DNA of 64,000 nucleotides from Limnochorda pilosa (GTDB lineage: Bacteria; Bacillota; Limnochordia; Limnochordales; Limnochordaceae), in contig NZ_AP014924.1 of NCBI RefSeq assembly GCF_001544015.1, positions 2,976,001 to 3,040,000 of the forward strand, written 5' to 3'. Numbering within the stretch: the stretch's first letter is position 1; every line of letters starts with the position of its first letter. A program made the position numbers and the translations under genes. Shown piece by piece: positions 28,133-61,996 of this stretch. The notes beneath the pieces were generated by a model. The model was given only the letters and a program-made list of their open reading frames with translations. It was not told the origin of the DNA and searched no databases.

Positions 28133-28138
28133 GGGGGC

Positions 28139-28395
28139 GTGCGGCGTTGCTGCGAGCGGACGGCTGCTCTGGGGACGACGACCCACACCTACGCCGACCC
28201 CGGCGGCTATGTGGCCACTCTGACCCTCTCCGGCGGCATGACGATCACCCTCAGCCCGCCCTCGGACGATGCCGACGCCCTCGAACCAGCCCCCGAGGCG
28301 TACCCGCTCTTCACCAAAGCGGCCTCTACCTCTATGTGGTGGTGCTGGAGGACGGCACCCGCTCCCTGGTGCAGAGGCTGGTGATCGAGCGATGA
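28139..28395 (+). pseudogene. Relic of a third PKD plus sorting-domain cargo gene
   Basis: Between cargo and PorV-like genes lie two frames that together spell the end of another cargo. Frame 2 gives a PKD end (THTYADPGGYVATLTLSGG) to about 28310; after a shift to frame 1, the last 24 residues of the sorting domain follow (GLYLYVVVLEDGTRS, then LVQRLVIER and stop at 28395). Most of the sorting domain is deleted. The tail and the following bases ATGAAGGGAGGA are nearly the same as at the end of the protease gene at 61043, so it once belonged to that type. Confidence 0.75.
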
Positions 28396-28412
28396 AGGGA
28401 GGAGCACGCAGG

Positions 28413-29285
28413 ATGAAGACCGTGATGCGGCTTCCGTCCCTCCTCGCGCTCTGCTTGGGTCTGGGCCTGCTGGCCCAGGCCCCGGCGGGGGCCCAGGAGG
28501 ACGACGCCGGGACCGCCGCCCACCTCCAGATCGGCATGGGCGCCCGCGCCCTGGCCATGGGCGGGGCCTTCGTGGCCGTGGCCGACGACGCCACCGCCCT
28601 CCACTACAACCCCGCGGGCCTCGCTACCCTTCAAGGGCTCGAGCTCACCTCCTTCTACTCAAGCGAGTACGGGGCCTCGAGCTACGGGGCCCTGGGGGTG
28701 GCCGGTCCGGGGCTGGGGGCGGGCGTGCAGTGGCTGGGCTCGCCGGGGATCGAGGCCCGCGACCCCTACGCCAACCCCACGGGCTCCTTCGACCTCACCC
28801 TGGCCGCCGCCCGGCTCGCCTACGCCCGGCGGCTGGGGCCGGTGGCCGCGGGCCTGGAGCTGACCTACGTGAGCGAGAGTCTCGCCTCGGTGACGGGCAA
28901 CGGCCTCACCGGCGACGTGGGGGTGCTCGCCCCATTGGGCCAGGTGCGTCTGGGGCTGGCCGCCCGAAACCTCTGGGGCACACTCGGGTACACCTCGGGC
29001 ACCTCGGACCCCTTCGACCCCGTCTACGTGGTGGGGACGGCCTGGCAGCCGGGCCGCCTCACCCTGGCCCTGGACTACGAGCTGGAGGGCCCCGTCCGCC
29101 TGGGGGCGGAGTTCCGGGTGCTCCCGGCCTTCGCCCTGAGGGCCGGGGCGTCGAGCCTGGAGGAGGAGGTCACCCTGAGCGGTGGCTTCGGCCTCGCCCT
29201 GGGCAGGCTCCGCCTGGACTACGCGTACCTGCAGCCCAAGGTGCTCCCAGGGACCCACCGGCTCTCGCTGGGGTACCGGTTCTGA
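28413..29285 (+). CDS. PorV/PorQ-like outer-membrane protein
   Basis: 290 residues from the ATG at 28413, after GGGAGGA; an in-frame ATG at 28392 overlaps the relic stop. Signal peptide LALCLGLGLLAQAPAGA. The N-terminus of the mature protein carries the family motif LQIGMGARALAMGGAFVAVADDA then NPAGLATL and FYSSEYGASSYG; the rest is barrel strands to HRLSLGYRF. PorV in Bacteroidetes is the shuttle and docking protein for type-IX cargo; the wider UPF0164 family is found in other diderms. A paralogue is at 61058, also directly behind a cargo gene. Confidence 0.82.
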   Translation: MKTVMRLPSLLALCLGLGLLAQAPAGAQEDDAGTAAHLQIGMGARALAMGGAFVAVADDATALHYNPAGLATLQGLELTSFYSSEYGASSYGALGVAGPGLGAGVQWLGSPGIEARDPYANPTGSFDLTLAAARLAYARRLGPVAAGLELTYVSESLASVTGNGLTGDVGVLAPLGQVRLGLAARNLWGTLGYTSGTSDPFDPVYVVGTAWQPGRLTLALDYELEGPVRLGAEFRVLPAFALRAGASSLEEEVTLSGGFGLALGRLRLDYAYLQPKVLPGTHRLSLGYRF

Positions 29286-30830: not shown

Positions 30831-31126
30831 GGCCTCGGCTCCGAAACCGTTTGTGATGCGATGGTCGCGCCGCAAGGTCAAGGGGGAGTCAAGGAGGCGT
30901 CAGAGCGGTGGCTCCGGCTCGAGAGCGCACCCGGTGACCTGCTGCAGCCGCGTCGCATTATGGCAACTCCCTCATCATTCAGGGGGTCCACACCCTGTTC
31001 CCTTCCATCGCGCTCCAGTACAATGACCCTTGCACGAGACCCACAGGTATCCGGCGCGGGCGGGAGAGCACGCGGAGCGCGTCAGGACCTCGGACACCAT
31101 TCCGCGCAACCACGGGGGTGACCGGC

Positions 31127-31849
31127 ATGGCTCGCGGTCTTTCAGACGCGTCACCGCTTTCACACACGGAGCGCCAGCCCGCTCGTGCGCCGGTTCCACC
31201 CACCCGCGTGGTGGTGGTGGACGACGATCCGCTCGCCCGGCACGTGTACCGCTCGCTCCTGGACGGGATGGCCCCGGCGATGGAGCACGCAGGGGCCGCG
31301 GCCAGCGCCCGGGAGGCCATGGAGCTCGTCCTGACCCGCCTGCCCGACGTCGTGCTCGTGGATCTTCTCCTGGGGGACGAGAGCGGCCTTGACCTCGTCC
31401 GGGCGCTGATCCAGCAGGGGTTCGCCGGGAGCATCCTCGCGGTGAGCGTCCTGCCTGAGGATCCCTACGCGTCGCGGGCCCTCGAGGCCGGCGCCTCGGG
31501 ATACCTGCGCAAGGAGGACGTCGGGCGCCGCCTGCCGGAGGCCATTGCGACCGTGGTCCAGGGCAAGACCTACCTGGACCCCCAGACCGCCGCGCACCTG
31601 TTGCGCCAGCTCCTACGAGCACGCGGGCCGAGGCCGCAGCGTCCCGCCCTGACGCCTCGGGAGCACGAGACCCTGGAACTCCTGGCGCGCGGGCTCAGCA
31701 ACAAGGAGATCTCCGCCAGCCTCCGCTGCACGACCCGAACCGCGAAGGCCCACGTCTCCCGAGTCCTCCAGAAGCTCGGCGTCGAGGACCGCACCCAGGC
31801 CGCTGTTCTCGCCATCCGCTTTGGCCTGGTGGACCGCGGCGCCTCCTGA
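31127..31849 (+). CDS. NarL/LuxR-type response regulator
   Basis: 240 residues; the ATG has GGGGGTG upstream (GTG at 31118 is an alternative). Receiver: RVVVVDDDPLARHVYRSLLDG, acceptor Asp in VVLVDLLLGDESG, Lys in SGYLRKEDVG; HTH LTPREHETLELLARGLSNKEISASL. Very close to the 29409 protein across its whole length. TACAAT at 31019-31024 is a possible -10, preceded by TTCC-N12 as in the promoter at 39615. It directly precedes the surface-subunit genes and is their likely regulator. Confidence 0.9.
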   Translation: MARGLSDASPLSHTERQPARAPVPPTRVVVVDDDPLARHVYRSLLDGMAPAMEHAGAAASAREAMELVLTRLPDVVLVDLLLGDESGLDLVRALIQQGFAGSILAVSVLPEDPYASRALEAGASGYLRKEDVGRRLPEAIATVVQGKTYLDPQTAAHLLRQLLRARGPRPQRPALTPREHETLELLARGLSNKEISASLRCTTRTAKAHVSRVLQKLGVEDRTQAAVLAIRFGLVDRGAS

Positions 31850-31880
31850 CACCCCGCGTCCTCACACGGAGCGATCGGAC

Positions 31881-31906
31881 GTTCGTTGTCCTCCCGGACA
31901 GTGGTC
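31881..31906 (+). promoter_or_regulatory. Conserved upstream element, copy A
   Basis: GTTCGTTGTCC then TCCC then GGACAGTGG, followed by TCC. The core GTCC-N4-GGAC is a dyad. An almost identical element lies at 39535-39560 (24 of 26 bases the same). The end of the element is 57 bases before the -10 at 31963 here and 55 before the -10 at 39615 there. Likely binding site of one of the NarL-type regulators. Confidence 0.65.
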
Positions 31907-31938
31907 CGCCGCGCGAGCACCCTCCTCCCCCTGACCGA

Positions 31939-31968
31939 TTGTTGAGCCTTCCGCCCCTTCTCTATACT
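31939..31968 (+). promoter_or_regulatory. Promoter of the subunit operon
   Basis: TTGTTG (31939-31944), 18-base spacer, TATACT (31963-31968). The -35 is imperfect, in line with activator dependence. Transcription would start about 35 bases before the first subunit gene. Confidence 0.6.
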
Positions 31969-32006
31969 GCCAGCGGTGGCAATGCTGGGGAGAGGATGGA
32001 TCTCGC

Positions 32007-33005
32007 ATGCTGGGGACCGGTCGCCGCAACGACTGGACGCGTCCTGGCGCGCTCCTCGCGGGCACGCTCCTTCTCACCCTCCTGCTTTCCGCCCCGGGTG
32101 CCACCCAGGCTTCACCCCTGTCCATCTCCTACGACATCCACGCCCTCACCGACAACGCCACCCGCCAGCCCGACGGCAGCTGGCTCGTACCCGTGGGCGA
32201 GCGCGTCGAGTGGCAGGTCGTCTGGTCGGTCGCGAACACCTCGTCGCTCCCGGTTGAGAGTCTGGGCCTTCGAAACCACTACAGCAGCGAGATCGAGGTT
32301 GATCCCCGTTCGATCAGCGGGTCCATGGGCGACGCGGACGTCTTCCGCACCGGGGGCGCGAACAGCTCCACCACCGTCCTGTGGAGCATCGGAGACCTGC
32401 CGGCGGCGAGCTCGGCCACGCTCACCTTCCGCATCGCCACGGGCACCAACCCCCAGGGAAAGCAGCTTTACGGCGACCCGGGCGACTACTGCCTCGACTC
32501 CGCGCTCACCATCAAGTGGCGCGGCGGCAGCACGAGCTTCGACTGCGTGGCCGTGCACGCCCAGGAGTTCGCGTGGATGCGCCTCGAGCTCCCGGCCACC
32601 CGGAAGGACTGGCGGGTGCGGAAACCAGGTGACTACACCTCCCTGGCCCTGCAGGTGCGCATCTCGAGCAACAGCTCGGTCATCGTCCAGTTTCAGGATT
32701 TCGGGGACCTGACCTCGCAGGGTCCGGTGCCTGAGGGTTCGAGTTCCGCCATCGCCACCTGGTACGCGGCGGGCGACACCCTGGGCGAGGCCTCCGCGGC
32801 CGGCTGGTGGCCTTCGGGCCAGCTGAACGACCAGGCTTTCACCTTTGCCTCATCCGAGACCCTGCGACAGGGCGTCGACTGGTTCCTCTGGGAACGCCTG
32901 GACGTGGGGCCCGAGCATGCGCCTGGCGAGTATCAGTCAGAGGGAGTTGTCCGTTTCGTCCTCGCCAACGCCGCCGTCCTGGTGGTGGGCGGGGAGACCC
33001 CTTGA
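32007..33005 (+). CDS. Secreted two-domain protein sharing a new C-terminal module with its neighbour
   Basis: 332 residues; GGAGAGG upstream. Signal peptide LLAGTLLLTLLLSAPGATQA. The first half (about 37-180) looks like a DUF11-type immunoglobulin-like domain (VEWQVVWSVANTSSLPVESLGLRN, TVLWSIGDLPAASSATLTFRI) with two cysteines. The second half aligns by eye with the next gene: ATRKDWRVRKPGDY, VRISSNSSVIVQFQDFGDL, a turn with an aromatic Y, then VDWFLWERLDV and VRFVLANAAVLVVGG. A minor or tip component of a surface filament or layer is a reasonable guess; no known family name. Confidence 0.7.
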   Translation: MLGTGRRNDWTRPGALLAGTLLLTLLLSAPGATQASPLSISYDIHALTDNATRQPDGSWLVPVGERVEWQVVWSVANTSSLPVESLGLRNHYSSEIEVDPRSISGSMGDADVFRTGGANSSTTVLWSIGDLPAASSATLTFRIATGTNPQGKQLYGDPGDYCLDSALTIKWRGGSTSFDCVAVHAQEFAWMRLELPATRKDWRVRKPGDYTSLALQVRISSNSSVIVQFQDFGDLTSQGPVPEGSSSAIATWYAAGDTLGEASAAGWWPSGQLNDQAFTFASSETLRQGVDWFLWERLDVGPEHAPGEYQSEGVVRFVLANAAVLVVGGETP

Positions 33006-33215
33006 CGGTGCGGCGCCCATCCGGGAAAGGGACGAAACCGGGTACGGCATCCACCGTACGACCCTTGGAGGAGGTGGTTCGGGAGGATCGAGGGAAGGCG
33101 GCGTGGGCCGCCACAGGCTCGTGACCTGATGCTCGTGCACCCCCGCGGGCCGATGAGGAGGGCGCGGGGGGCAGAGGTCATCGATCAACTACCTTGAGGA
33201 GAGGAGCAGGATACG

Positions 33216-33989
33216 ATGTCGCGCAAGCTCGCGTTCTTCCTGACGGGCGTGCTCTTCCTGGCCCTCGCGGCAGGGGCGTCCGCCCAGTACAACCCCAACG
33301 GCGAGGCGCTGCCTCCCGGTGCCCAGGAGCAGGAGGTCTTCTGGTTCAACGGAGACACCCAGGCCTGGGAGTCCATCGGCAGCGGCGGCGCCGCCCAACT
33401 GGCCCGCAGCTGGAACTCTGGTCCCACGTTCGGCAACTGCAACAAGGCGTACTGGGACATCACCTTCACCAGCCACGCCTCCGTCGCCCAGTGGCTCGAC
33501 TGGACGCTGCAGACCACCCGCAAGGACTGGCGGATCCGCAAGCCCGGCCAGTACGCGTCCGACTCCATCGACTTCAGCATCGCGAGCAACAACGCGGTGC
33601 TGGTGAGCTTCGACGGCTTCGACGACCTCCAGTACCTGAACCCCGATGCGCCCGAGGATACCACCAACTACATCGAGACCTACTACGGTGTCGGCAACAG
33701 CTTCGATGCGGCCAACGCCAACGGGTGGGTACGTGCCGCGGATCTGAACGAGGCTACGTACACCTTCCCGAACACCGATGACCTCCACCACGGCATGCAG
33801 TTCAAGTTCTGGCAGAAGATCAACGTCGTCGAGTCCAACAGCTCGTCCGAGTACGAGAACGTCGGCACGGTGCGCCTGGCCCTGACCAACCTGAAGTACT
33901 GGATCGACGGCCAGACGGGCGGCTACCTGCCCAACCAGACCGGGCTCGGCCAGCCTCCGACGGAGCCTTACGTCCCGCCCACCATCTAG
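33216..33989 (+). CDS. Secreted surface-subunit-like protein, paralogue of the preceding gene
   Basis: 257 residues; GAGGAG before ATG. Signal peptide FFLTGVLFLALAAGASA. The mature protein is rich in Asn, Ser, Tyr and Trp and shows TTRKDWRIRKPGQY, SIASNNAVLVSFDGFDDL, MQFKFWQKINVVESNSS and VRLALTNLKYWIDGQTGG, matching the C-terminal half of the 32007 protein. A Pro-rich tail ends it. Low-charge, Asn-rich composition, small size and a strong hairpin just after the gene suggest an abundant structural subunit. Function is inferred from context only. Confidence 0.7.
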   Translation: MSRKLAFFLTGVLFLALAAGASAQYNPNGEALPPGAQEQEVFWFNGDTQAWESIGSGGAAQLARSWNSGPTFGNCNKAYWDITFTSHASVAQWLDWTLQTTRKDWRIRKPGQYASDSIDFSIASNNAVLVSFDGFDDLQYLNPDAPEDTTNYIETYYGVGNSFDAANANGWVRAADLNEATYTFPNTDDLHHGMQFKFWQKINVVESNSSSEYENVGTVRLALTNLKYWIDGQTGGYLPNQTGLGQPPTEPYVPPTI

Positions 33990-34029
33990 CCGGCGGCAAG
34001 CAGAGCCGGGTACCACCGACCGGGGACCA

Positions 34030-34062
34030 TGCGGGGAAGGCCGCGTGCCGGCCTTCCCCGCA
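34030..34062 (+). terminator. Perfect 14-base intercistronic hairpin
   Basis: TGCGGGGAAGGCCG pairs perfectly with CGGCCTTCCCCGCA across a five-base loop (CGTGC). No U-tract follows, so it is either a partial terminator or a 3' stabiliser that lets the subunit message accumulate over the chaperone and secretin genes downstream. Confidence 0.65.
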
Positions 34063-34116
34063 CCCCGCGTCCGACGGTCGCGAACCCAAGACCCATGAGC
34101 GAAGGTGGCTTGCCTG

Positions 34117-35865
34117 ATGGAGAAAGCGCGAGAGGGTACCCGCCGTCGTTGCGCAGGACGCACCCTGCTGGCTCGATGGAGCATGATCTTGCTGCTGCTG
34201 ACGTTGGCCGCGGCCCCCGCGACCGCGCAGGGCTACTCCTTCAACGTGAGCCCCCTGCTCATCGAGCTGGAGGGGCCGCCGGGGAGCTCCCTGCCGTTCG
34301 AGATCAGCATCAGCAACGAGAGCGCCGACCGGACCGGCGAGTTCACCGTCCTCGCCGTGCCTTTGCAGCAAGACCGGGGCGGCAACTATCGGGTGGCCTC
34401 CGAGCCCGGCGGGCACTCGGCGGACGGCTGGATCCAGGTTTCACCGGAGGCGTTCACCCTGCCTCCGGGAGGCGGTCAGGTCATTCAGGGCCAGCTCACC
34501 TTCCCCCGCAGCTTCCGGGGGGGCGCCTACGCGGGCGTGGTGCTCCGGCTCAAGCCCGAGGAAGGCCCGCGCGAGGGCCCCCAGCAGGTCTTCCGGAACG
34601 AGCTGGTCGTCATCGTCGAGGCGGTGGCCGTCACGCCGGGCGTGCGACCGGACCTCTACATCTCCAAGCTGGCGGTCCTCTCCGCGGGCCAGCCGGGCCT
34701 CGAGCAGGTGGCCCGCCAGTTCGGTCCCGAGGCGCTTCTCTTCTCCGCTGAGCTGACGAACGAGGGCAACGTGCACGGGTTCGCCCGGGGGCAGCTGAGC
34801 CTCTGGGACGCGTCGGGACGGAAGATCCGCGAGATCCCCCTGGGCGCAGGCAGGGGCGCCGTCCTGCCCGGTGCCACGGTGCAGCTCACCTCTGTCCTCC
34901 CCACCGGCCTGCCTCCCGGCGAGTACACCCTTCAGGCGGTCGTCTACTACGGCGGGCCGCGTCCGGCCATCACCCGCCAGAGCTTCACCGTGGGCGAGCA
35001 GCTGCTGCAGGCCGCTCAGGGGGGACGAGGCGCCCGCATCGCCGTGGAACCCGAGACGGTTTCGTTCGAGCTGGTCCCCGGGGCTGCCCGCTTCGCGGCG
35101 CTCCGCATCCGCAACCTGGACCGGGTGCCCGTCACCGTCACCGGGCGCGTCATCTCCTTGGTCTACGACGCAGCGGGGAACCCCAACGTGGAGGACGTCC
35201 CCGCCGACGGATCCGCGGCCGGCTGGACCCTCCTCCGGCCCGAGAGCGTCACCCTCGCGCCGGGGCAGACCCGCAGCCTCCAGGTGGGGGTGCGGACCCC
35301 GCGCGGGGCGGGGTTGGGTGCCCGCTACGCCCAGGTGCTCCTCACCGCGACCCCCGAGATCGGCAAGGAAGGGTTCGTGGAGACTCAGGTCAACGTCCCG
35401 ATCTACGCGCTGCTCGGCGAGGAGCTGGCGCCCGCGGGCGAGCTCAGCGCGCTTGCGGTCGAGGCGTCCGAGGACGGGCGCTTCCTGGTGGTGAGCACCG
35501 AGTTCTCCAACCACGGCACCGTGCACACCACCCCCAGCGCCCAGGTGCTGATGGAACTGAAGACCCTTCCCGAGCCCGTGGAAGGCGCCGAGTACGTGGG
35601 AGACCCGATCTGGGTGGAGACGGCGAAGATCGAGGTCCCACCCGCCGGCACACCGGTACTCCCTGGGGGGACGCGGAACCTGGGAGCCCTCCTGTCCAGA
35701 CCGGAGACGCCCGGCGAGTACCGGATTCGGGTCACCGTCCGCTATCCGGGCGGAACCCCGCTGGTTCAGGAGCGGCTGGTGACCCTCTCGAACGACGGGG
35801 TGGACGCGGCCGCCACGCCGCCTGCCTCGTCACCCGACAGCCCAGGGGAGGCAGGACAACCGTGA
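34117..35865 (+). CDS. Secreted chaperone-like protein with tandem immunoglobulin-like domains
   Basis: 582 residues; ATG after GAAGGTGG. Signal peptide WSMILLLLTLAAAPATA. The start of the mature protein, YSFNVSPLLIELEGPPGSSLPFEISISN, and a second copy at about residue 305 (ARIAVEPETVSFELVPGAARFAALRIRN) are the pattern of PapD/DUF916-type chaperone domains, each followed by a VRLKP/VLLTA-like strand and another Ig-like segment (FSAELTNEGNVHG; VSTEFSNHGTVHT). There are thus two repeats of a two-Ig unit. Likely role: periplasmic handling of the upstream subunits. The stop overlaps an in-frame start of the secretin gene (GTGA). Confidence 0.72.
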   Translation: MEKAREGTRRRCAGRTLLARWSMILLLLTLAAAPATAQGYSFNVSPLLIELEGPPGSSLPFEISISNESADRTGEFTVLAVPLQQDRGGNYRVASEPGGHSADGWIQVSPEAFTLPPGGGQVIQGQLTFPRSFRGGAYAGVVLRLKPEEGPREGPQQVFRNELVVIVEAVAVTPGVRPDLYISKLAVLSAGQPGLEQVARQFGPEALLFSAELTNEGNVHGFARGQLSLWDASGRKIREIPLGAGRGAVLPGATVQLTSVLPTGLPPGEYTLQAVVYYGGPRPAITRQSFTVGEQLLQAAQGGRGARIAVEPETVSFELVPGAARFAALRIRNLDRVPVTVTGRVISLVYDAAGNPNVEDVPADGSAAGWTLLRPESVTLAPGQTRSLQVGVRTPRGAGLGARYAQVLLTATPEIGKEGFVETQVNVPIYALLGEELAPAGELSALAVEASEDGRFLVVSTEFSNHGTVHTTPSAQVLMELKTLPEPVEGAEYVGDPIWVETAKIEVPPAGTPVLPGGTRNLGALLSRPETPGEYRIRVTVRYPGGTPLVQERLVTLSNDGVDAAATPPASSPDSPGEAGQP

Positions 35866-35933
35866 GTCATCTGTGGGGCAGGTTCCGGCGTCGAGGTTGC
35901 GAGGGCGCCGAGGTCGACGGGGGTGGAACGCTC

Positions 35934-37211
35934 ATGCCACTCGGGCGACGCACGTGGATGGGACCGTGGGCGGTGGCTGGCCTCTGCCTGGCGCTCGGCC
36001 TCGGTACCGAGGCTGCGCCGATCCGGGCCCAGGACGCACTGCAGGCGCCGGCACCTGCGCCGCAAGCCTCCAAGGAGGAGGAAGACCCGCAGCCCCTGGT
36101 CTCGAACGTCTTCGTGGAGACCTTCATCACCCAGGCCCTCCAGGACATCGGCCTGCAGGCCGGCGTGAACATCCTGGCGGATCCGGGCGTTCAGGGCTTC
36201 GTGACCCTGGAGCTGAACGAGGTTCCCTTCGAGAAGGCTCTGCGCCTGATTCTGGCTCCCGGAGGCTTCACGTACGTCAAGCTCGACGAGACCACGTACC
36301 TGGTGGGGAAAGCGGACCGCACCAGCCCGGTCTTCCACGCGCTCACCCGGACGCAGCGCGTTCCCCTGAGCTACGTGACCGCGGACCAAGCTCGCCGGCT
36401 CCTCTCGGAGTACTACACCAACTACGTCCGCTTCGACGCCGAGACCAACACGGCCCTGATCACGGCCCCGCCGGAGCTCCTGGAGCGCATCGCCTCCGAC
36501 CTGGCCCGCGTCGACCGGCCGCCGGCCCAGGTGGCCATCGAGGCGGTCGTCACCGAGGTCTCGGAGGAGGGACGGAAGGAGCTGGGCCTCGATTGGACCG
36601 TCGAGACACCCGACCGACCGGAAACGTATAGCGCGGGCTTCAGCCAGCTGCAGGGACTGACCCAGCTCATGCTACAGACTCCATACACCAAGCTCATGAC
36701 CAACCTTCGCCGCCTGGTGAGCGACGGAAAGGCCACGATCCGGGCCAATCCACGGCTCACGGTCCTCGACGGCGGCACGGCGGACATCTTCGTGGGCGAG
36801 GACCGCTACTTCAAGATCGTCACCGGCAGCGAGGCCACCCCCTTCACCCGCCTGGAGGCCATCAACGTGGGCGTGAGCCTCAGCATCTCGCCGCGGGTGG
36901 CTCAGAACGGCGAGATCACCCTGACCGTCAAGCCCACGGTCAGCGACGTGACAGGCCAGGTGGGCGACGACCTGCCCGTGGTGAGCCGGCGCCAGATCAC
37001 CACCACCGTTCGGGTCCGGAACGGTGAGACCCTTGCCCTGGGAGGTCTGGTCCAGGAGAGCGAGGAGACGGTGACCAACCGCGTGCCCGTCCTCGGGGAC
37101 CTGCCGGTCCTGCGCTTCCTCTTTTCGAGCACGAAGGAGCGCCGGGTCTCGTCCGAGGTCGTGGTGCTCATCACGCCCCGGCTGGTCGACATGGGGGGTC
37201 ACGGATCATGA
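35934..37211 (+). CDS. Outer-membrane secretin (type II/III/pilus superfamily)
   Basis: About 425 residues from the ATG at 35934, which follows GGGGGTGG and gives a good signal peptide (WAVAGLCLALGLGTEAAPIRA); a GTG at 35862 overlapping the upstream stop is the alternative. An N0/STN-like domain (VETFITQALQDIGLQAGVNILAD, VTLELNEVPFEKALRLIL) and an N1-type domain (VPLSYVTADQARRLL) are followed by the secretin core: QVAIEAVVTEVSEEGRKELGLDW, ATIRANPRLTVLDGG, VGVSLSISPRVAQNGEITLTVKP, and the C-terminal GGLVQESEETVTNRVPVLGDLPVLRFLF, EVVVLITPRLV. It forms a gated pore in the outer membrane. No GspE/PilB ATPase or pilin is nearby. Confidence 0.92.
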   Translation: MPLGRRTWMGPWAVAGLCLALGLGTEAAPIRAQDALQAPAPAPQASKEEEDPQPLVSNVFVETFITQALQDIGLQAGVNILADPGVQGFVTLELNEVPFEKALRLILAPGGFTYVKLDETTYLVGKADRTSPVFHALTRTQRVPLSYVTADQARRLLSEYYTNYVRFDAETNTALITAPPELLERIASDLARVDRPPAQVAIEAVVTEVSEEGRKELGLDWTVETPDRPETYSAGFSQLQGLTQLMLQTPYTKLMTNLRRLVSDGKATIRANPRLTVLDGGTADIFVGEDRYFKIVTGSEATPFTRLEAINVGVSLSISPRVAQNGEITLTVKPTVSDVTGQVGDDLPVVSRRQITTTVRVRNGETLALGGLVQESEETVTNRVPVLGDLPVLRFLFSSTKERRVSSEVVVLITPRLVDMGGHGS

Positions 37212-38128
37212 AGGACGCTCTGATCAAGACGGAATCCAGAGGGCCGGTACGTCGCAGGCTCGCACCAGGTGCCGCACGCCCGAAAGCTGCAGGCCGGCTC
37301 GTCCTCGCCGCACTCCTGATCCTCGGGCTCCTGGGGGTGGGGACGGCCGCGGCGGCAGCAGCGGCCTCCCGGCCCGGCGACGTCCCCCCACCCGGCTTTC
37401 CCGACGCGACCGGCGCGTCGGGCGAGATCCAGGCCGTCTTCCTCAACCCGGCCGCGGCCGCGGGTCTCCCAGCGGCCTCCGCCAGCTTCTGGGCCGTGGT
37501 GGCCAGCCCCAAGCAGCCCGGCAGGCCCCCGGGGTACACCGTGGCCCTTCTGGATCCCGGGGGGCGCCTGGCCGGCGGGTTCGTCGCGACCCTCGCGGGC
37601 AGCGAGGCGGTGCAGCCGTTGTCGCTCAGCTACGCCGTCGCAGGGAGACTCGGGCCTGTGGCCCTCGGCCTGCGCCCCGTGTGGACCCGCGTCGAGCTTG
37701 CCGAGGGTCTCTGGACCCTTGACGCCGGCATCGCCTGGAGGCTTCGCGCCTGGGCGAGCCTGGGCCTCGCCGGCCTCGACCTGCCCATCGCCGATGGCCC
37801 GGGGTCGGATCGACCTCCGGCCAGGGGCCTGGCCGGGCTCACCTTCACCGCGACGCCCCTCACGGGAACGCTCCTGGAGGGAACCCAGTTCTCGCTTGGG
37901 CTCTCCGATCCAAACCTGGACGCCCCCGACGACTCCGTGGCCCGGGCGGGCCTGCGCGTGCCCATTGGTCAGCGATTCCGGCTTTCCCTGGGCTACGAGC
38001 ACGATAAGCGGCCAGGGCTCGCCCCGAGGTGGACCGGGGGTTTCGCCGCTCGCGCGGGATCCCTTCGACTGGATCTGACCTTCCAGACCGACGACGTCTA
38101 CCGCGCGGGAATCGAAGTGGGCTGGTAG
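37208..38128 (+). CDS. Outer-membrane barrel protein, distantly PorV-like
   Basis: 306 residues; the ATG overlaps the secretin stop (ATGA). After a basic leader a signal or membrane segment (LVLAALLILGLLGVGTAAAAAAA) precedes strand-rich sequence. IQAVFLNPAAAAGLPAASASFWAV near the N-terminus echoes the NPAGL motif of PorV/UPF0164 proteins. The last strand, DDVYRAGIEVGW, ends in Trp. Translational coupling to the secretin suggests the two work together. Confidence 0.7.
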   Translation: MKDALIKTESRGPVRRRLAPGAARPKAAGRLVLAALLILGLLGVGTAAAAAAASRPGDVPPPGFPDATGASGEIQAVFLNPAAAAGLPAASASFWAVVASPKQPGRPPGYTVALLDPGGRLAGGFVATLAGSEAVQPLSLSYAVAGRLGPVALGLRPVWTRVELAEGLWTLDAGIAWRLRAWASLGLAGLDLPIADGPGSDRPPARGLAGLTFTATPLTGTLLEGTQFSLGLSDPNLDAPDDSVARAGLRVPIGQRFRLSLGYEHDKRPGLAPRWTGGFAARAGSLRLDLTFQTDDVYRAGIEVGW

Positions 38129-38176
38129 CTCACCCCGGGGAGACGGTAGGAAAGGAGGTGGCAAGCAATTCCATCC

Positions 38177-38389
38177 ATGGGATCCACACCCTCGCGGGAG
38201 ACCCGGCTGGCCGAGGAACAGGCCCTTCTCCTCCTGGAGCGCGTGATCGACGGCCCGCGGGAGGGCCTGCAAGCACTTTATGCCTTCTTGGTCCAGTACC
38301 CGGAGGCGGCGCGGCTGGTGGCCGTGGAAGCGGCGCGCCGGGCTCACGACCTGGCCGGCGAGGTGCGTCTCCTCAAGAGGTTCCGGTAA
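38177..38389 (+). CDS. Small helical protein, 70 residues
   Basis: The peptide is almost entirely helical: EEQALLLLERVIDGPREGLQALYAFLVQYPEAARLVAVEAARRAH, with a basic C-terminus. No signal peptide. A perfect AAAGGAGGTG (38151-38160) is 18 bases before the ATG but nine before an in-frame ATT at 38168, so translation may begin at ATT. Function unknown; it may bind the kinase encoded next. Confidence 0.55.
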   Translation: MGSTPSRETRLAEEQALLLLERVIDGPREGLQALYAFLVQYPEAARLVAVEAARRAHDLAGEVRLLKRFR

Positions 38390-38398
38390 AGGCCGTCC

Positions 38399-38725
38399 GA
38401 ACCGCCGATCGCTCCGGTGCCCCCGAAAGGGGGTACCGGGGCGTCGTCGCGTGCCGTGGGCGGTAAGGAACCCCCGGGCCGGTTGCAGGAAACCGACGCC
38501 GTTCCTAGAAACTCGTGGATGTCTGCTGGGGAGCATCGGGTGGCCGTGCCGGTACGGTCTCTTGCGCCGACCCTGCATCCTGCGCACCGGATCTCTGTTG
38601 GCCCATATCCTTTCTCTGCCGCGAAAACCTCGTGCCCCATTCGTTTCCCACAGCGGACGCCGCTCCCGCGGCGAGCCGAGCCCGACGAACACGGATTGCG
38701 AGGTCGCCAGAGGAGGAATGCATCT
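38399..38725 (+). other. Untranslated, probably structured leader of the kinase gene
   Basis: No gene is supported here. Bases 38415-38436 form a nine-pair stem (GGTGCCCCC-GAAA-GGGGGTACC, one G-U pair) with a GNRA loop. A second fold is nested within GGAAC (38467-38471) and GTTCC (38501-38505), with GGTT...AACC inside. No U-tract follows either. The kinase GTG and its AGGAGG are at the end. I compared it from memory with common riboswitches and found no match. Confidence 0.4.
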
Positions 38726-39490
38726 GTGGGCGTGCGGACCGCTCCTTTGCCCGTCATCCGGTTTCAGGACGTCTTCAGGGACCATGGAAACCCCGAGCGT
38801 ACCTATGTCCTCGGCCGTGTCATGCTCTACGCGGCCCACGAGGTCAAGACGGCCCTCACCGTCATCGACCTCATCCTCGACGCCGTCAGGCGCCAGGCAG
38901 CCAGCGGGCACGCGCCGGATCCGTCCGACGTGGAGATCGCTCAGGCGGCGCTCCGCCGCGCCGGTGCCCTGCTCGAGGAGATCCTCGCCTACGGCAGCGG
39001 CCGGACCCTGCGCCGCGCCCGTCTCGACCTGGCCGAAGTGGTCCGGTCGGTTGCGGACATGCTCCGCGTGGTGGCTCGGGGGAACGCCGAAACGGGTCAC
39101 CCCGTGCAGATCGTTGAGCGATCCGCCGGCCCCGGCCCCGTGATCCAGGGGGATCGCGCCCTTCTAGAGGCTTCCCTGGTGAACCTGAGCTTCAACAGCC
39201 TCCAGGCGCTCGGGACCCGAGGCGGTACCGTCTGGTTGGAGGTCACGTGCGACGCGGGTGTCGCGGAGGTTCGGATCCGGGACACCGGTCCAGGCCTGGG
39301 CGACCTCGCACCCGAGGAGGTCTTCCGCCCCTACCGGAGCAGCCGGGAGGGCGGGACGGGACTGGGCCTTTCCATCGCCCGAGCCGGCATCGAGGCCCAC
39401 GGGGGCACCCTGACCCTTCGAAACGTCGCGGAGGGTGGAGCCGAGGCCGTCCTGCGGCTCCCTCTCTCCGGGGCGGATCGGAACCCCTGA
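38726..39490 (+). CDS. Soluble histidine kinase
   Basis: 254 residues; GTG nine bases after AGGAGG. It has no transmembrane segment. The dimerisation helix has the phospho-acceptor H38 in LYAAHEVKTALTVIDLI. The ATPase domain has N157 in SLVNLSFNSLQAL, the G1 box D186 in IRDTGPGLG and the G2 box GTGLGLSIA at 210-218. With only about 30 residues before the acceptor helix, sensing must come from a partner, perhaps the 70-residue protein before it. Its likely target is the regulator that follows at 39705. Confidence 0.9.
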   Translation: MGVRTAPLPVIRFQDVFRDHGNPERTYVLGRVMLYAAHEVKTALTVIDLILDAVRRQAASGHAPDPSDVEIAQAALRRAGALLEEILAYGSGRTLRRARLDLAEVVRSVADMLRVVARGNAETGHPVQIVERSAGPGPVIQGDRALLEASLVNLSFNSLQALGTRGGTVWLEVTCDAGVAEVRIRDTGPGLGDLAPEEVFRPYRSSREGGTGLGLSIARAGIEAHGGTLTLRNVAEGGAEAVLRLPLSGADRNP

Positions 39491-39534
39491 CGCCCTGCCC
39501 GCGTCTCCCACCCCGGCCCTCGGACCGCACCCCT

Positions 39535-39560
39535 GTTCGTCGTCCTCCAGGACAGTGGCC
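39535..39560 (+). promoter_or_regulatory. Conserved upstream element, copy B
   Basis: GTTCGTCGTCC then TCCA then GGACAGTGG and CC, almost the same as copy A at 31881. Downstream are CCGTTCCCCAC (39573-39583), GGACAATGG (39585-39593) and a TACACT -10 (39615-39620), 55 bases from the element. It precedes the third regulator gene. Confidence 0.65.
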
Positions 39561-39704
39561 CTGTTGACCAGCCCGTTCCCCACAGGACAATGGCAGCTTT
39601 CCGGGCGCGTCCGGTACACTGAGCCCGGGAAACGGATGTCCAGGCCGCCGGCTCCGGGTGCAGCCGAACTCCCCGTGGCGCCTGGGCTTCGGGTGAGGTG
39701 CGCC

Positions 39705-40418
39705 ATGGCATCGACGGAGTCCCGGGGACACGAAGTGGCCATTCTGCTGGTAGACGACGACCCTCTTTCGCGCGGGGCCCTTCGCCGGCTGATCGGCCTG
39801 GTGGAGGGGGTCGTCGTGGCAGGCGAGGCGGCGGGTCCCGAGGAGGCCCGCGAGGGGGTCCGCCGGTTCCACCCGGACGCGGTGTTGATGGACGTCCACA
39901 TGGGTCACGTGAACGGCTTTCAGGTCACGCGCGACCTGGTGCGCGAGCACCCTGGGCTGCGCGTGCTGGTGGTCAGCGTCCTCCCCGAGAACCCCTACGC
40001 GGTGGAAGCCTTCCGGGCGGGTGCTTCGGGCTTCCTCCGAAAAGAGGATGCCCCCCGCCGCTTGGCCGAGGCCATTCGGACCGTGGTGCAGGGAGAAACC
40101 TACCTCTCGCCGGCCGTGGCTCCCGAGCTGGTGCGGGAGCTCGTGCGGTCGAGGGCCTCGGGACTGGACTTCCCATCCCTGACACCCCGGGAGCAGGAGA
40201 TCCTGGAGCTGCTGGCCCAAGGGCTGAGCAACAAGGAGATCGCCGCAGTCCTGCATTCCACGGTGCGCACCGTGAAAGCCCACGTCTCCCACGTCCTGGA
40301 GAAGCTCAACGTGGACGATCGCACCCAGGCAGCCGTGCTGGCCCTCCGCTTGGGACTGGTGCGCTCACAGGATGCCCCTTACCGCGAGCCCCGCTCCGCC
40401 CCGAATGAGGGGCGGTGA
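39705..40418 (+). CDS. NarL/LuxR-type response regulator paired with the kinase
   Basis: 237 residues from ATG 39705 (ATG 39636 is possible). Receiver: VAILLVDDDPLSRGALRRL, acceptor Asp in AVLMDVHMGHVNG, Lys in [37 protein letters not shown] ending [16 protein letters not shown]. It is the third member of the paralogous set at 29409 and 31127 and the only one next to a kinase. The giant barrel gene follows 126 bases on. Confidence 0.9.
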   Translation: MASTESRGHEVAILLVDDDPLSRGALRRLIGLVEGVVVAGEAAGPEEAREGVRRFHPDAVLMDVHMGHVNGFQVTRDLVREHPGLRVLVVSVLPENPYAVEAFRAGASGFLRKEDAPRRLAEAIRTVVQGETYLSPAVAPELVRELVRSRASGLDFPSLTPREQEILELLAQGLSNKEIAAVLHSTVRTVKAHVSHVLEKLNVDDRTQAAVLALRLGLVRSQDAPYREPRSAPNEGR

Positions 40419-40544
40419 GGCGCGACGGCAGCGGTCCGGTGCCTACCGGTCCGGCCCGCTCGCCCCGGCCGCGGAGAAGACGTGCCCGAAGGCCATGTAG
40501 GTCACCATGGAGGAACCGCGCCGGTCCCTCCGAAGCAAACGGGG

Positions 40545-43500
40545 ATGAGCCGACCGCCCGCCGGAGAAACCGCCTCAGAGACCGCGTTCCGTCGCGTTGC
40601 CGTCCTTCTCCTGCTCCTCGCGCTCGTCGTCGCACCCCCGAGCGCGTCGGCCCAGTCTCTCCGCATCTCGGGCGACGCCACCTGGAGCCTGTCGGCAGGC
40701 TTCAGTGATCCGGAGGGCCTGGATGGGACGGACTACTCCCTGGGGGTGCCGGAGATCTCCCAGCGGCTCCGGCTGAAGCTCTCGGGCGAGGTCGTGGCCG
40801 GGCTCGCCATCGAGGCGGACCTGGACAACCTCCAGTCGGACAACCTCCAGCTCCTCTCCCTCACCTTCACCCGGGACGATTGGACCGCCCGCTTCGGCGA
40901 CTTCCGCTTCCAGCCCGAGAACCCGTCCACCGCCTCGTCGCTGAGCCTCAAGGGCGTGGCGGCTGAGGGACCGCTGGGACCGGCCACCGTGGGCCTCACC
41001 TTCGCCCGGGCCCAGGGGATCCCGGCCGTGAAGGAGTTCACCGGCCAGAGCGGCTCCGACACCGTCCGGTACCTTCGGGACGGGCCCTACGCCCCCACCC
41101 GGGTGGGAGGCCACCTGGAAGCGAGCCTGGAGGGGGCGTTCTTCTTCGACCTTGGCCTACCTTTTGACCCGGACTTCGTGGATGCCTTCATCGTCTGGGT
41201 GGACGGTGAGCCTGAAGGGGGCCGTTCCCTTGCAGACGTCCTCACCGCCAACGACCTCGGGGATCTGGCGCGACCGAAGGAGGGCACCCCACCGCTTGGA
41301 GTGCTCGAGGCGGGACAGGCCGTGCTCTTGGACCGTGGCGCCTACCTCACGCCCCCCGCGGGCCAAGATCTCCTCATCCTGGCCCGCGAGCCCAGGCAGA
41401 TCCTCCGGGACCAGCTTCAGGAGCTGATCCGGCTCTACAACCACATCAACGACCTCGAGGGCGACCAGCGCCTGACCTACCCCTACTCGCCCGGGACCGC
41501 GAGCGACGAGGCCATGCTGGAGGAGATCTACCGGTACGACACGCAGGTCGCGGTGGGCTCCGGCTCGCCTGACAGCACCCCGCAGGACTTCGACCTGGGC
41601 CAGAGGCGACGTTACTACGACCTCGGCCACCGCGAGCTCGACCCGGAGTCGGTGAAGGTGACGGTGGTCAAGGCGGGCCAGCGCCTGGATCCCGCTGCCG
41701 TCGGGCTCGACGTGGCGATCCACTACGACGAGGGGATCCTGGAGCTGCCCGGTGGCCCGGCCAGCATCCTGGACGAACTCAACGCCATCGAAGTCTCCTA
41801 CCGCTACCGGGTGGAGTCCAACATCTACACCCTGGGGCTCTCCCTCGCCGTCGACAGCGAGCGGGTCTTCCTCAACGGGAGGCGCCTCGCGCGCAACGTG
41901 GACTACACCATCGACTACGAGGCGGGCATCCTCATCGTTCTGGTACCTGTCGGTCCGGAGGACACGCTCCGGGTGGAGTACGAGACCTTCCGGGGAGGCC
42001 TGGGCGGGGGCGGTGATTACCAGCGGAACTTCTACGGCGGCCGGGTGGGCTTCGAGATGCGGCCGGGCTGGACCCTGGGCCTGGACCTGCTCCGGGGCGC
42101 CGACGTGCCGGTACCCGCGGAAGATGCCGCCACCCTGGGGACCATGCCCAACACCCAGACGGTGGCGGGGCTGCGGAGCCGTTTCCTCAACGACCTGTGG
42201 GACGTGGACCTGCAGGTCGCTCGGAGCCACGACCAGTTCCCCTTCGACGACAACCAGAAGCCCCACCAGCCCAACCAGGTCACGGCGCTGGCCGGGTCGG
42301 ACCCGTCGGGGACGACTCCGTTCCTGGCCGCGGGCCATCAGAACGGGCTCAGCGTGCTGGCGTCGGACACCGGCACCGAATGGCATCACTACGGCATCGG
42401 CCAGGGGCCCGCAGGCGTACCCGTCCACGGCATCGCCGTGGCCGAGGGCTGGTGGTTCCTCGCCACGGGGGGCGGGCTCACGGCGGTCGACGTCACAGAG
42501 GGTCTCCCAGCCGCTCTCGACTCCGTAGCCAACTGGCAACGCTACTACGAGAACGACGGCCTTCCCTCCAACGACGTCCGCGCCGTGGCCATCGACAACG
42601 AGACCGTCTGGGTGGGGACCGCCGACGGCCTCGTCTCCGCCCCGCGCGACAGCTTTCCCGGAACCAAGGACGACCCCGTACCATGGACCGCCCACGACCC
42701 TGGCGTGGGCCCCGAGATCACGGCCATCGCCGTCGACCCCGGCGGCGCCGTCTACGTGGCGGGGGCTGGCGGGCTCGCGCGGGCGCCCGAGGGCAACGCC
42801 TTCGAGACCCTCCGTTCCGGCGAGCGGTTTGAGAGCATCGCTGTGCCGCCCGGGGGATCCGGGTTGCCCGTCTACGCCGGCGGGCCGGAGGGTCTCTACT
42901 ACCTCCCTCAAGCAGGAGGCGGCGACCTTCTCCGCGTCCCAGACGTCTCCGGGACCCGCGCGCTGGCCTACTGGGGGAGCAACCTCTGGATCGCCACCGA
43001 CGACGGGCTCTACGTTGTTCAGGATCCCGAAGCCAACCCTCGCCAGGCGACGCCCGCAGGCCTTGAGGGGACACCCCTGACCTCTATCGGCATCGGTCCG
43101 AACCCGGACGACCCGCCGACGCAAGCCCTCTGGATCGGCACGGGCCGTCAGCCCGGCGGGGACACCGCCTTCTGGACCGTAACGGCCCCGGCGGACCCGC
43201 CCCCGAGTCCCATCACCTTCGACGAGGCCTCCATCGACCCCGAAGACCAGTACCGCTACCAGGACCTCGCCGCCAGCGAGCACACGGCGGAAGGGTGGAA
43301 AGGCAGCCTGGCCGTGGCCCGCCGCTTCGACTGGGGTCGCCTCTACCTGAATGCCCTCCGGCAGGAGGCGGACTTCCTCCCTCTGGGCTCCACGGAGCGG
43401 CAGGATCTCTTCGCCTGGGAGGCGGGCGCCCGGTGGGACGCCTCGGACCGGCTGAGCCTGGCCCTCAGCCACCGCCAGGAGGACCGTACTCCCATGCCCC

Positions 43501-44735
43501 GGCCCGCCGGCGACGAGGCAGGCGGGTCGACGCCGGAGACCCCCTACCGGCTCTGGACGGAGCGGGCCTCCCTCACCTGGCGGCTGGGCCCCGAGCTGGA
43601 GCTAGCCTACCAGACCACCCGCCGGGACGACCTGGACGCCCCGGGCGACGACAGCCAGGAGGACCGGTACTCTGCCACGGTACGAGAGGGGTTTCTCGAC
43701 GACCGGCTCACCCTGGGCGCGGGACTCGAGCAGGTGGTCTTGCGGCACTGGACGGACCCCGCGCAGAGCTACCGGGCTCAGAACCTCCTGGGCGAGCTGG
43801 ACGCCCGTTTCTGGGAGAGCCTCACGCTGCGGGTCCGGTACCGCCGCCCGCTACGGGTGAAGGGACCCGAGGAGCGGCCGGCACAGCTCTCGGAGACCGT
43901 GAGCTACGGCCTCGCCTGGAACGGGGGCGTTGGGCCCGTCCGCCTGCGGGCCTCCTACGACGACGAGCGCTCCCAGGACCAGGTGCCCCAGGCTCGCGGC
44001 GTGCATACCCAGCGGGCCAGCACCCGCGCGGACACCTCTCCCTTCCGGGCGGGGCCCTTCGCCCTCACCCCCAACCTCTTCGCCTCCTGGCGGGACCTGT
44101 CGGGCTGGTACCTGTTGGACCAGGTGCGGACCGAGGCCGGCGGGGGGATGGACGTGGGCTGGTCCGCCCTTCGGCTGGGAAGCACCGTGAGCACGGCCCG
44201 AACCGACTACAGCAAGACGGGAAAGCGCGACGATGAGCTCCGCTACGGCCTCACTGCCCGCTGGGAGGCCTGGCCCCAGCTCACCCCCAGCCTCGAGTGG
44301 AGGCGCACCGATCGGGTGGCGAGCCTACCCGGAGTGCAGCCCCAGTCCTCCAAGGAGGGCCGGGCTCGGGCGATCCTCCAGTGGCGGCCGCTGTCGGGGC
44401 TCTCCGCCACCACCTCCGTCACCCGCACGGACCGGGAGGACCGAACAGGCAAGAGCTACCGGAGCGGCCTCGAAAACCGCGTGAGCTACGCCCTCTCCGC
44501 CACCACCTCGCTGGGGGGGCTGGTGGAGCTCGCGCAGGGGACAGCCACGGACCTGAGCGTGCTTCCGGACCAGGCGCCGCCCCTGGAGCAGCACGTCAAG
44601 GTGGAGCTCTCAGGGGACCATCGCTTCAGCGAAAGGTGGAGCGCGGAGGTTCTGGCCGGCGGCGTATGGGGCGAGAAGGACCAGGACCCCTTCACCTCCT
44701 ACTACACCCGGCTCTCCGCCCGGCTCACCTTCTGA
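40545..44735 (+). CDS. Giant outer-membrane barrel with inserted beta-propeller, SprA-like segment
   Basis: 1396 residues from ATG 40545 (weak GGGG site; GTG 40482 would spoil the signal peptide RRVAVLLLLLALVVAPPSASA). Residues 37-430: strand-rich barrel-like sequence (LRLKLSGEVVAGLAIEADLDN, WTARFGDFRF). Residues about 434-482, SLAVDSERVFLNGRRLARN then VDYTIDYEAGILIVL, resemble the repeated motif of SprA/Sov, the type-IX translocon. Residues about 579-880 are a propeller with Reg_prop-like blades (NETVWVGTADGLVSAP, NLWIATDDGLYVVQD). Residues about 900-1396 are barrel strands ending YYTRLSARLTF. SprA proper is far longer and lacks a propeller, so this is at best a distant relative. Confidence 0.75.
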   Translation: MSRPPAGETASETAFRRVAVLLLLLALVVAPPSASAQSLRISGDATWSLSAGFSDPEGLDGTDYSLGVPEISQRLRLKLSGEVVAGLAIEADLDNLQSDNLQLLSLTFTRDDWTARFGDFRFQPENPSTASSLSLKGVAAEGPLGPATVGLTFARAQGIPAVKEFTGQSGSDTVRYLRDGPYAPTRVGGHLEASLEGAFFFDLGLPFDPDFVDAFIVWVDGEPEGGRSLADVLTANDLGDLARPKEGTPPLGVLEAGQAVLLDRGAYLTPPAGQDLLILAREPRQILRDQLQELIRLYNHINDLEGDQRLTYPYSPGTASDEAMLEEIYRYDTQVAVGSGSPDSTPQDFDLGQRRRYYDLGHRELDPESVKVTVVKAGQRLDPAAVGLDVAIHYDEGILELPGGPASILDELNAIEVSYRYRVESNIYTLGLSLAVDSERVFLNGRRLARNVDYTIDYEAGILIVLVPVGPEDTLRVEYETFRGGLGGGGDYQRNFYGGRVGFEMRPGWTLGLDLLRGADVPVPAEDAATLGTMPNTQTVAGLRSRFLNDLWDVDLQVARSHDQFPFDDNQKPHQPNQVTALAGSDPSGTTPFLAAGHQNGLSVLASDTGTEWHHYGIGQGPAGVPVHGIAVAEGWWFLATGGGLTAVDVTEGLPAALDSVANWQRYYENDGLPSNDVRAVAIDNETVWVGTADGLVSAPRDSFPGTKDDPVPWTAHDPGVGPEITAIAVDPGGAVYVAGAGGLARAPEGNAFETLRSGERFESIAVPPGGSGLPVYAGGPEGLYYLPQAGGGDLLRVPDVSGTRALAYWGSNLWIATDDGLYVVQDPEANPRQATPAGLEGTPLTSIGIGPNPDDPPTQALWIGTGRQPGGDTAFWTVTAPADPPPSPITFDEASIDPEDQYRYQDLAASEHTAEGWKGSLAVARRFDWGRLYLNALRQEADFLPLGSTERQDLFAWEAGARWDASDRLSLALSHRQEDRTPMPRPAGDEAGGSTPETPYRLWTERASLTWRLGPELELAYQTTRRDDLDAPGDDSQEDRYSATVREGFLDDRLTLGAGLEQVVLRHWTDPAQSYRAQNLLGELDARFWESLTLRVRYRRPLRVKGPEERPAQLSETVSYGLAWNGGVGPVRLRASYDDERSQDQVPQARGVHTQRASTRADTSPFRAGPFALTPNLFASWRDLSGWYLLDQVRTEAGGGMDVGWSALRLGSTVSTARTDYSKTGKRDDELRYGLTARWEAWPQLTPSLEWRRTDRVASLPGVQPQSSKEGRARAILQWRPLSGLSATTSVTRTDREDRTGKSYRSGLENRVSYALSATTSLGGLVELAQGTATDLSVLPDQAPPLEQHVKVELSGDHRFSERWSAEVLAGGVWGEKDQDPFTSYYTRLSARLTF

Positions 44736-61043: not shown

Positions 61044-61057
61044 AGGGAGGAGACCGC

Positions 61058-61996
61058 GTGACGTCCCGCCGAGGCACTCTCGTCCGTGGCCGCAGGCATC
61101 TCGGCCACGCCTGCCGATGGGTGGCGAGGCTCTTCATCGTCGCCCTCGTCGCCGGGTCGCCCACCCGCGTCGCCCTGGCCCAGGACCTTGCTGCCACGGC
61201 CGCCTTCCTCGACCTCGGTCTGGGCGCCCGGACCATGGCCATGGGGGGAGCCTCCGTCGCAGTGGTGGACGGTGCCGCCGCCCTCCGTGACAACCCTGCG
61301 GGCCTGGCGCAGCTCCGGGGCCTTCACTTCACCTCCTTCTACTCGACGGAGTACGGGCTGTCGAGCCTCGGAGCGGCCGCCCTCGCGGCCCCATCCTTCG
61401 GCCTCGGGGCCACCTACTTCCTTTCCCCGGACAACCAGGTGCGTGACGATCCTCCGGCACCCGCGTCGGACACCTTCGACGTCACGAGCCTCGCCGCCAC
61501 CGCTGGCGTGGGGGCCCGGCTGGGGCCGCTCGCCCTCGGGGTGAGCCTCACCCACGTGCGCCACGCGCTCTACCAGACGACCGGCACCGGCCTGACGGGA
61601 AGCGCCGGCCTCCTTCTCCAGGCAGGGCCCTTGCGGGTCGGGGTGGTCGGCCGCCACCTCTTCGGCGAGATGACCTATGCTTCGACCGCGGACCCCTTCG
61701 ACCCCGTCTATGCGGCAGGGTTCGCCCTGATGGGGAGGGAATTCGTGGTCACCGGGGAGTACGAGGTGCCAGGCTCCGAGGATCGGTCCGGCGGCATCGC
61801 CCGGGCGGGCCTGGAGGTGCGCCTGGGGCGTCTCCTCGACCTGAGGGCCGGGGCCGCGTACCAGGTAGCCCAGGACCTCCTGGATCCGAGCGCCGGCATC
61901 GGGATCCACCTGGGCGGGTTGCGGCTCGACTACGCCTACACCCTGCCCGCCGTCCTGCCCGAGACCCACCGGCTGGCCCTGGCGGTTCGCTTCTGA
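61058..61996 (+). CDS. PorV/PorQ-like outer-membrane protein, second copy
   Basis: 312 residues from GTG 61058 after GGGAGGAG; an in-frame ATG at 61040 overlaps the protease stop. Signal peptide ARLFIVALVAGSPTRVALA. The mature start LDLGLGARTMAMGGASVAVVDGA, NPAGLAQLRGLHFTSFYSTEYGLSS and the barrel end YAYTLPAVLPETHRLALAVRF parallel the 28413 protein along the whole length. Same gene order as there: cargo, then PorV-like. Its probable job is export or anchoring of the protease. Confidence 0.85.
   Translation: MTSRRGTLVRGRRHLGHACRWVARLFIVALVAGSPTRVALAQDLAATAAFLDLGLGARTMAMGGASVAVVDGAAALRDNPAGLAQLRGLHFTSFYSTEYGLSSLGAAALAAPSFGLGATYFLSPDNQVRDDPPAPASDTFDVTSLAATAGVGARLGPLALGVSLTHVRHALYQTTGTGLTGSAGLLLQAGPLRVGVVGRHLFGEMTYASTADPFDPVYAAGFALMGREFVVTGEYEVPGSEDRSGGIARAGLEVRLGRLLDLRAGAAYQVAQDLLDPSAGIGIHLGGLRLDYAYTLPAVLPETHRLALAVRF

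Follow-up and report, generated by a model that had tools for sequence, protein, structure and literature searches.

In the genome of Limnochorda pilosa, five co-directional genes, SUB1, SUB2, CHAP, SECR and BARREL (32007-38128), form a cassette whose order and strand recur in more than 30 genomes of the Limnochordia and of other families of the phylum. We consider it slightly better than an even chance that this cassette specifies a surface-fibre pathway, here termed "chaperone-secretin", that is usher-less, ATPase-free and driven by donor-strand exchange. What the analysis shows is the gene set and how it is conserved, the family or fold to which CHAP, SECR, BARREL and, with moderate assurance, SUB2 belong, the domain layout of SUB1, and that usher and ATPase are missing.

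The window analysed is a stretch of 64,000 nucleotides (G000:C1:2976001-3040000) of a host genome that consists of one closed contig of 3,817,036 bases; closed genomes of the Limnochordales number three in total (PMC11456536). Genomes are labelled G### and loci L###, G000 being the L. pilosa host. An earlier note on this DNA had described a surface-assembly cluster, and the open reading frames that it listed are all present where it placed them (Table 1); no ATPase, usher or pilin gene was found within the stretch.

Table 1. Features of the cassette and of its surroundings, in window positions
Feature	Position	Strand	Basis or remark
RR_C, LuxR-type response regulator	31118..31849	+	Response_reg 3.7e-18, GerE 4.1e-18; just upstream of the cassette
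SUB1, secreted large subunit, putative tip adhesin or cap	32007..33005	+	C-terminal pilin-like domain, residues 182-325
SUB2, secreted small subunit, putative major fibre subunit	33216..33989	+	Probable pilin-like fold; co-occurrence with CHAP
Stem-loop, long, near-perfect	34030..34062	+	Directly after SUB2; candidate transcript stabiliser or attenuator favouring SUB2
CHAP, exported, chaperone-like, two tandem two-Ig-domain units	34105..35865	+	WxLIP profile match, internal duplication, model
SECR, short secretin (N0-N1-secretin)	35862..37211	+	PF00263 9.8e-44, PF03958, PF07660
BARREL, PorV/UPF0164-like outer-membrane barrel	37208..38128	+	HHalign 99.0% to two PorV/UPF0164-family-type proteins of the window; adjoins SECR in most relatives
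70-aa ORF between BARREL and kinase	38177..38389	+	No counterpart at relatives' loci
Soluble histidine kinase	38726..39490 (ORF open from 38417)	+	HATPase_c 3.1e-16
RR_D, LuxR-type response regulator, kinase partner	39705..40418	+	Homologues kinase-paired in L027, L028, L029, L030, L122
Giant protein, 1396 aa	40545..44735	+	Weakly SprA-like

Conservation of the cassette

Relatives of CHAP were sought in 73 genomes of the class and 398 genomes of the phylum, and the neighbourhoods of the genes found were then read. The earlier note had named beforehand the outcome that would speak against it, homologues scattered with no conserved neighbourhood; what the search returned is a conserved one, and the recurrence of the five-gene order across many genera and families is beyond chance. 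SUB2 is present in 24 of the 398 phylum genomes and a full-length CHAP in 23, all within those 24 (Fisher p = 2e-36, relatedness uncorrected), and in the sole SUB2 genome that lacks CHAP (G380) a contig of 4,921 bases stops at SUB2. SECR lies directly 3' of CHAP in every locus of this kind (type 1) whose contig extends that far, and two loci (L081, L085) carry an extra SUB2-CHAP-SECR set in tandem. The G+C content of the cassette loci has a range that includes 39% to 71%. One copy (L034, in G032) looks degraded, because it has a truncated SECR and the locus yielded no subunit gene. In a metagenome-assembled genome of the same genus (G067; L122, 5983-9366), the order RR-SUB1-SUB2-SECR-BARREL-kinase-RR is retained with only a remnant of CHAP and with an internal gap in SECR, losses that may reflect either decay or an assembly fault.

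A second type of cassette is found elsewhere in the L. pilosa genome (L025, 5869-12723, G000:C1 ~2,000,900-2,007,700, given also as ~2,002,000-2,008,000), with similar loci at L035, L038, L039, L042, L043, L089 and L094. It comprises an upstream regulator with a BTAD domain, small secreted subunit-like proteins, CHAP2, SECR2 and a 538-aa protein. The small proteins often end in a strand of the form QPAGxYxGxIxxTV; their profile matches SUB2 at 96.7% (HHalign), and its best PDB sequence match, to the CsuE pilin domain (E 0.11), is suggestive only.

CHAP is a duplicated relative of WxLIP

The two PapD/DUF916-like units that the earlier note had seen in CHAP proved to be homologous repeats (HHalign 99.95% between unit 1 and unit 2) with DUF916/WxLIP kinship, and the profile and fold searches that it had proposed place the protein among relatives of WxLIP and of pilus chaperones. 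A profile of 36 CHAP members matches EfmWxLIP1 of Enterococcus at 4.1e-9, and at E <= 0.1 PF06030 is recognised in four of 21 members of the family and PF11797 in one. CHAP is, judging from these profiles, a remote, duplicated relative of WxLIP (DUF916/DUF3324). The structural model (pLDDT 89), which has no C-terminal transmembrane helix, consists of beta structure throughout and can be read as four domains of Ig type. HHalign pairs domain 1 with 3 and domain 2 with 4 and leaves 1 and 2 unpaired, which makes the protein a two-domain module duplicated in tandem. Its fold matches WxLIP (TMt 0.51-0.55) and the pilus chaperone CfaA (TMt 0.54-0.55); long eukaryotic Ig arrays reach better E-values than WxLIP against the model, but at a TM-score near 0.17. 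Inspection of the alignment for the invariant basic cleft residues of PapD revealed no conserved Arg or Lys in the opening strand of unit 1 or unit 2. WxLIP has been predicted to supply a hairpin strand that completes the beta-sandwich of its partner (PMC10599100). Translation of CHAP starts at 34105 or 34183, the signal peptide being best from the latter.

Three loci (L026, 5985-9678; L036; L037) encode a single-unit relative of CHAP beside large secreted proteins; the two of these that were scanned, of 706 and 964 aa, contain SdrD_B and one of them also NPCBM/Ig-type domains. This group is a third, different use of the CHAP fold, and it was set aside as a cassette relative on account of its one unit and the lack of a secretin.

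The two subunits

The two secreted proteins described as paralogous in the earlier note have one domain in common, and the profiles and models that it had suggested for establishing what they are point to a pilin-like identity. An AlphaFold2 model of SUB2 (pLDDT 74, from an alignment of 11 sequences) returned as its top PDB matches in Foldseek mostly chaperone-usher pilins (CsuE, CsuA/B, FimG/FimF, CfaB, FimA and Caf1), CsuE leading at 7.7e-4, and as a second group the fibre-forming CanA. Because the TM-scores are low (0.25-0.49), this likeness is moderate evidence, and SUB2 may be assigned a pilin-like fold with moderate assurance. SUB2 had no sequence-level match to pilins, and SUB profiles compared with PDB sequences yielded nothing useful. 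The Pfam WxL domain (PF13731) was matched in none of 20 SUB proteins, and neither SUB1 nor SUB2 matches any NCBIfam model, TIGR04183 included, which argues that they lack a sorting domain.

In SUB1 the shared domain forms the very C-terminus and is preceded by an N-terminal region that varies. All 22 of 22 orthologues have this C-terminal domain, and their N-terminal parts range from 62 to 501 residues; comparison of SUB1 gave 40% against 60% in the long group, a pattern not found among the four nearest (57% against 54%). Tip adhesins and large WxL proteins have the same layout.

Behind SUB2, a stretch of 46 nt (34022-34067) folds into a hairpin of -38.1 kcal/mol (z -5.4). Of 24 loci, 15-16 have a strong stem-loop (z < -2) after SUB2, and the stem-loop sequence varies from lineage to lineage. 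The comparison with 98 co-directional gaps gave p = 1e-4 and that with 32 gaps preceding an oppositely oriented gene p = 0.016, values that are optimistic because the loci are related and from which it follows that the hairpin is not general to the gaps of these loci. Its position would fit differential expression of the major subunit.

Secretin, barrel and the missing usher and ATPase

The secretin is unambiguous (Secretin at 9.8e-44, with Secretin_N and STN), and the coupled translation that had been claimed for it is visible in the GTGA overlap of CHAP and SECR and the ATGA overlap of SECR and BARREL. The start of SECR overlaps the stop of CHAP by 4 nt and is served by the ribosome-binding site GGGGAGG. 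Among curated families, SECR comes closest to GspD and PilQ, both below cut-off. The adjoining product had been described simply as a barrel coupled to the secretin; the overlap and the barrel stand, and its type is probably PorV/UPF0164, a relationship found through proteins of the window, BARREL having no direct NCBIfam match. None of SUB1, SUB2, CHAP and BARREL matches a curated Pfam or NCBIfam family over its cut-off.

The usher family PF00577 is absent from all 73 class genomes, that of the host included, in a search whose E. coli control was positive, and membership in the chaperone-usher systems was rejected on this ground. PF00437, which covers the ATPases of type II secretion, type IV pili and Tad, scores over cut-off nowhere in the closed host genome (13 of 14 controls match). 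Of the two weak matches there, one falls, judged by gene order, in a SpoIIIA-like operon and the other in a transposon region. Sub-cut-off matches are likewise all that is found in the cassette-bearing genomes G066, G069, G068, G004 and G006, the best in G066, a single-contig carrier, reaching just 9.4e-4. Identification as a type IV pilus or type II system was rejected for want of the ATPase. Other members of the class do have T2SSE, and the cassette is therefore independent of it. A conserved cassette with no usher, in a closed genome with no secretion ATPase, bears out the earlier view of a dedicated subunit-chaperone-secretin module unlike any described system.

The closed genome encodes four secretins. 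The two besides SECR and SECR2 each lie beside an RHS/YD-repeat protein of more than 1300 aa (L099, 7081-13228, G000:C1 ~1,305,000-1,311,200; L100, 10005-16387, ~1,474,000-1,480,400), a possible secretin-RHS export pair.

Flanking genes and signs of a type IX-like system

Two-component control, as the earlier note had it, holds in part: RR_C keeps its position in a second species of the genus (synteny, L122), and the kinase and RR_D adjoin the cassette only in L027, L028, L029, L030 and L122, a linkage confined to the order, other lineages having no adjacent kinase-regulator pair. The 70-aa ORF, with no counterpart in relatives, drops out as a member and may be no cassette gene. The giant protein, also counted as a member at first, was rejected on the strength of a class-wide search and of the sister-species locus, which show it unlinked in relatives. 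Seven of 73 class genomes have a homologue of it; in G064 and G066 the homologue is remote from the cassette, and cassette-free genomes such as G060 and G061 have one too. At the sensitivity used, the giant is absent from most cassette genomes; its best family hint, SprA/Sov at 1.9e-7, is far below cut-off.

Across the whole host genome, the type A sorting domain (TIGR04183) is recognised over cut-off in seven proteins, each with a same-strand gene of the PorV/PorQ family close by (six within ~0.5 kb, one at ~1.7 kb). Within the window, type IX-like signs lie at 26420-29285, at 59211-61996 and in the giant gene, with its weak SprA/Sov match. Together they hint at type IX-like secretion in a member of the Bacillota; a 2016 survey reported that system in Bacteroidetes only (PMC4793230).

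Proposed pathway and alternatives

In the chaperone-secretin pathway, Sec would export all five proteins, and CHAP would donate a beta-strand in the periplasm, capping SUB1 and SUB2, whose Ig folds would be incomplete. The capped subunits would then be delivered to SECR, an outer-membrane conduit replacing the usher, with polymerisation and export driven by donor-strand exchange between subunits and not by ATP. SUB1, its pilin domain flush with the C-terminus, would leave first as tip adhesin or cap; SUB2, overproduced by means of the hairpin behind its gene, would form the bulk of the fibre as major subunit, and the PorV-like BARREL would anchor or escort it. We infer the donation of a strand by CHAP, the formation of a fibre, its exit by way of SECR, the part played by BARREL and the effect of the hairpin. 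Several observations speak against the pathway: the middling quality of the SUB2 model and the lack of a pilin match at sequence level, the missing cleft arginine of PapD in CHAP, and the eukaryotic Ig-repeat proteins that outrank WxLIP by E-value, though with poor TM-scores.

The kinship of CHAP with WxLIP also suits a less likely alternative, in which the cassette is the diderm counterpart of a WxL cluster and builds a non-fibrous coat. CHAP, being WxLIP-like, would hold SUB1 and SUB2 as the large and the small protein of WxL type, and the only task of the secretin would be to pass a finished complex or an S-layer protein to the surface. Typical WxL clusters do combine a large and a small protein, which have a C-terminal domain in common, with one WxLIP (PMC10599100), and in Carboxydochorda an S-layer has been seen whose gene was not found (PMC11456536). 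Against such a coat, however, SUB1 and SUB2 lack a WxL domain, the modelled fold of SUB2 is nearest to pilins, and CHAP is duplicated, its model being devoid of the C-terminal transmembrane helix.

We regard ordinary secretin-based secretion as improbable. SUB1 and SUB2 would here be exoproteins that fold before passing through SECR, as folded proteins do through secretins elsewhere, and CHAP would escort them in the periplasm or be another substrate; the nearness of SECR to GspD and PilQ, albeit below cut-offs, speaks for such a system. The genome nevertheless lacks the ATPase of type II secretion and type IV pili, and paralogous subunits with a common terminal domain and a dedicated, duplicated chaperone do not make a type II layout. 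Very improbable indeed is an export centred on PorV, with BARREL and the SprA-like giant as the real, type IX-like conduit and a separate task for the secretin. The PorV likeness of BARREL, the giant's weak SprA match and the sorting-domain proteins beside PorV genes would agree with it, but SUB1 and SUB2 have no sorting domain, the giant is neither linked to the cassette nor, at the sensitivity used, present in most genomes that carry it, and SECR adjoins CHAP in complete type-1 loci.

Somewhat short of an even chance, in our estimate, is the broader proposition that the chaperone-secretin cassettes constitute an undescribed class of fibre biogenesis, combining donor-strand pilins, a tandem chaperone of WxLIP/PapD type and export through a secretin with neither usher nor ATPase. 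This class would have two versions, types 1 and 2, that are deeply separated and spread over lineages of the phylum, and it could link the WxL clusters of Gram-positive bacteria to chaperone-usher pili. Among open-licence papers, none was found that joins DUF916 with a secretin, or a secretin with donor strand and diderm; novel systems, it was noted in 2016, may remain in clades without known ones (PMC4793230). If the proposal is right, double-membrane bacteria would possess a new route for surface fibres that needs neither usher nor ATPase and brings together a secretin pore, as in type II, III and IV machines, and the donor-strand chemistry known from chaperone-usher pili, and secretins would have a role in genomes without any secretion ATPase. 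It would also furnish candidate genes for the envelope filaments and the gene-less S-layer reported in cultured Limnochordia (PMC11456536), and would connect pilus chaperones with the WxLIP proteins found in Gram-positive bacteria, which bears on the loss or change of outer-membrane systems in Bacillota.

Comparison with known systems

The Pyrodictium cannulae resemble the cassette through CanA, an archaeal extracellular fibre subunit; we know of no chaperone-secretin operon associated with it. Type IX secretion probably shares a barrel of the PorV/UPF0164-like kind, whereas the subunits of the cassette have no sorting domain and the cassette no SprA. With type II secretion and with type IV and Tad pili it has in common an outer-membrane secretin with N0, N1 and secretin domains; it differs in a genome without an ATPase of T2SSE/PilB/TadA type and an operon without a pilin-like gene of that sort, and to our knowledge no secretin exports donor-strand fibres.

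The WxL/WxLIP clusters of Gram-positive bacteria likewise place one WxLIP-type protein with a large and a small partner, whereas the cassette has no WxL domain, its WxLIP is duplicated, its host has two membranes and its operon holds a secretin and an outer-membrane barrel. Chaperone-usher pili, above all the archaic Csu, are alike in the probable pilin-like fold of the subunits, the chaperone of two Ig domains, the combination of a large two-domain and a small subunit in one operon, and the lack of an ATP-driven motor; in contrast, the cassette has a secretin in the place of the usher, which is missing from genome and class, and its WxLIP-related chaperone is duplicated in tandem. The parts each resemble known things, and the secretin that takes the usher's place without a motor sets the whole apart from every system tested.
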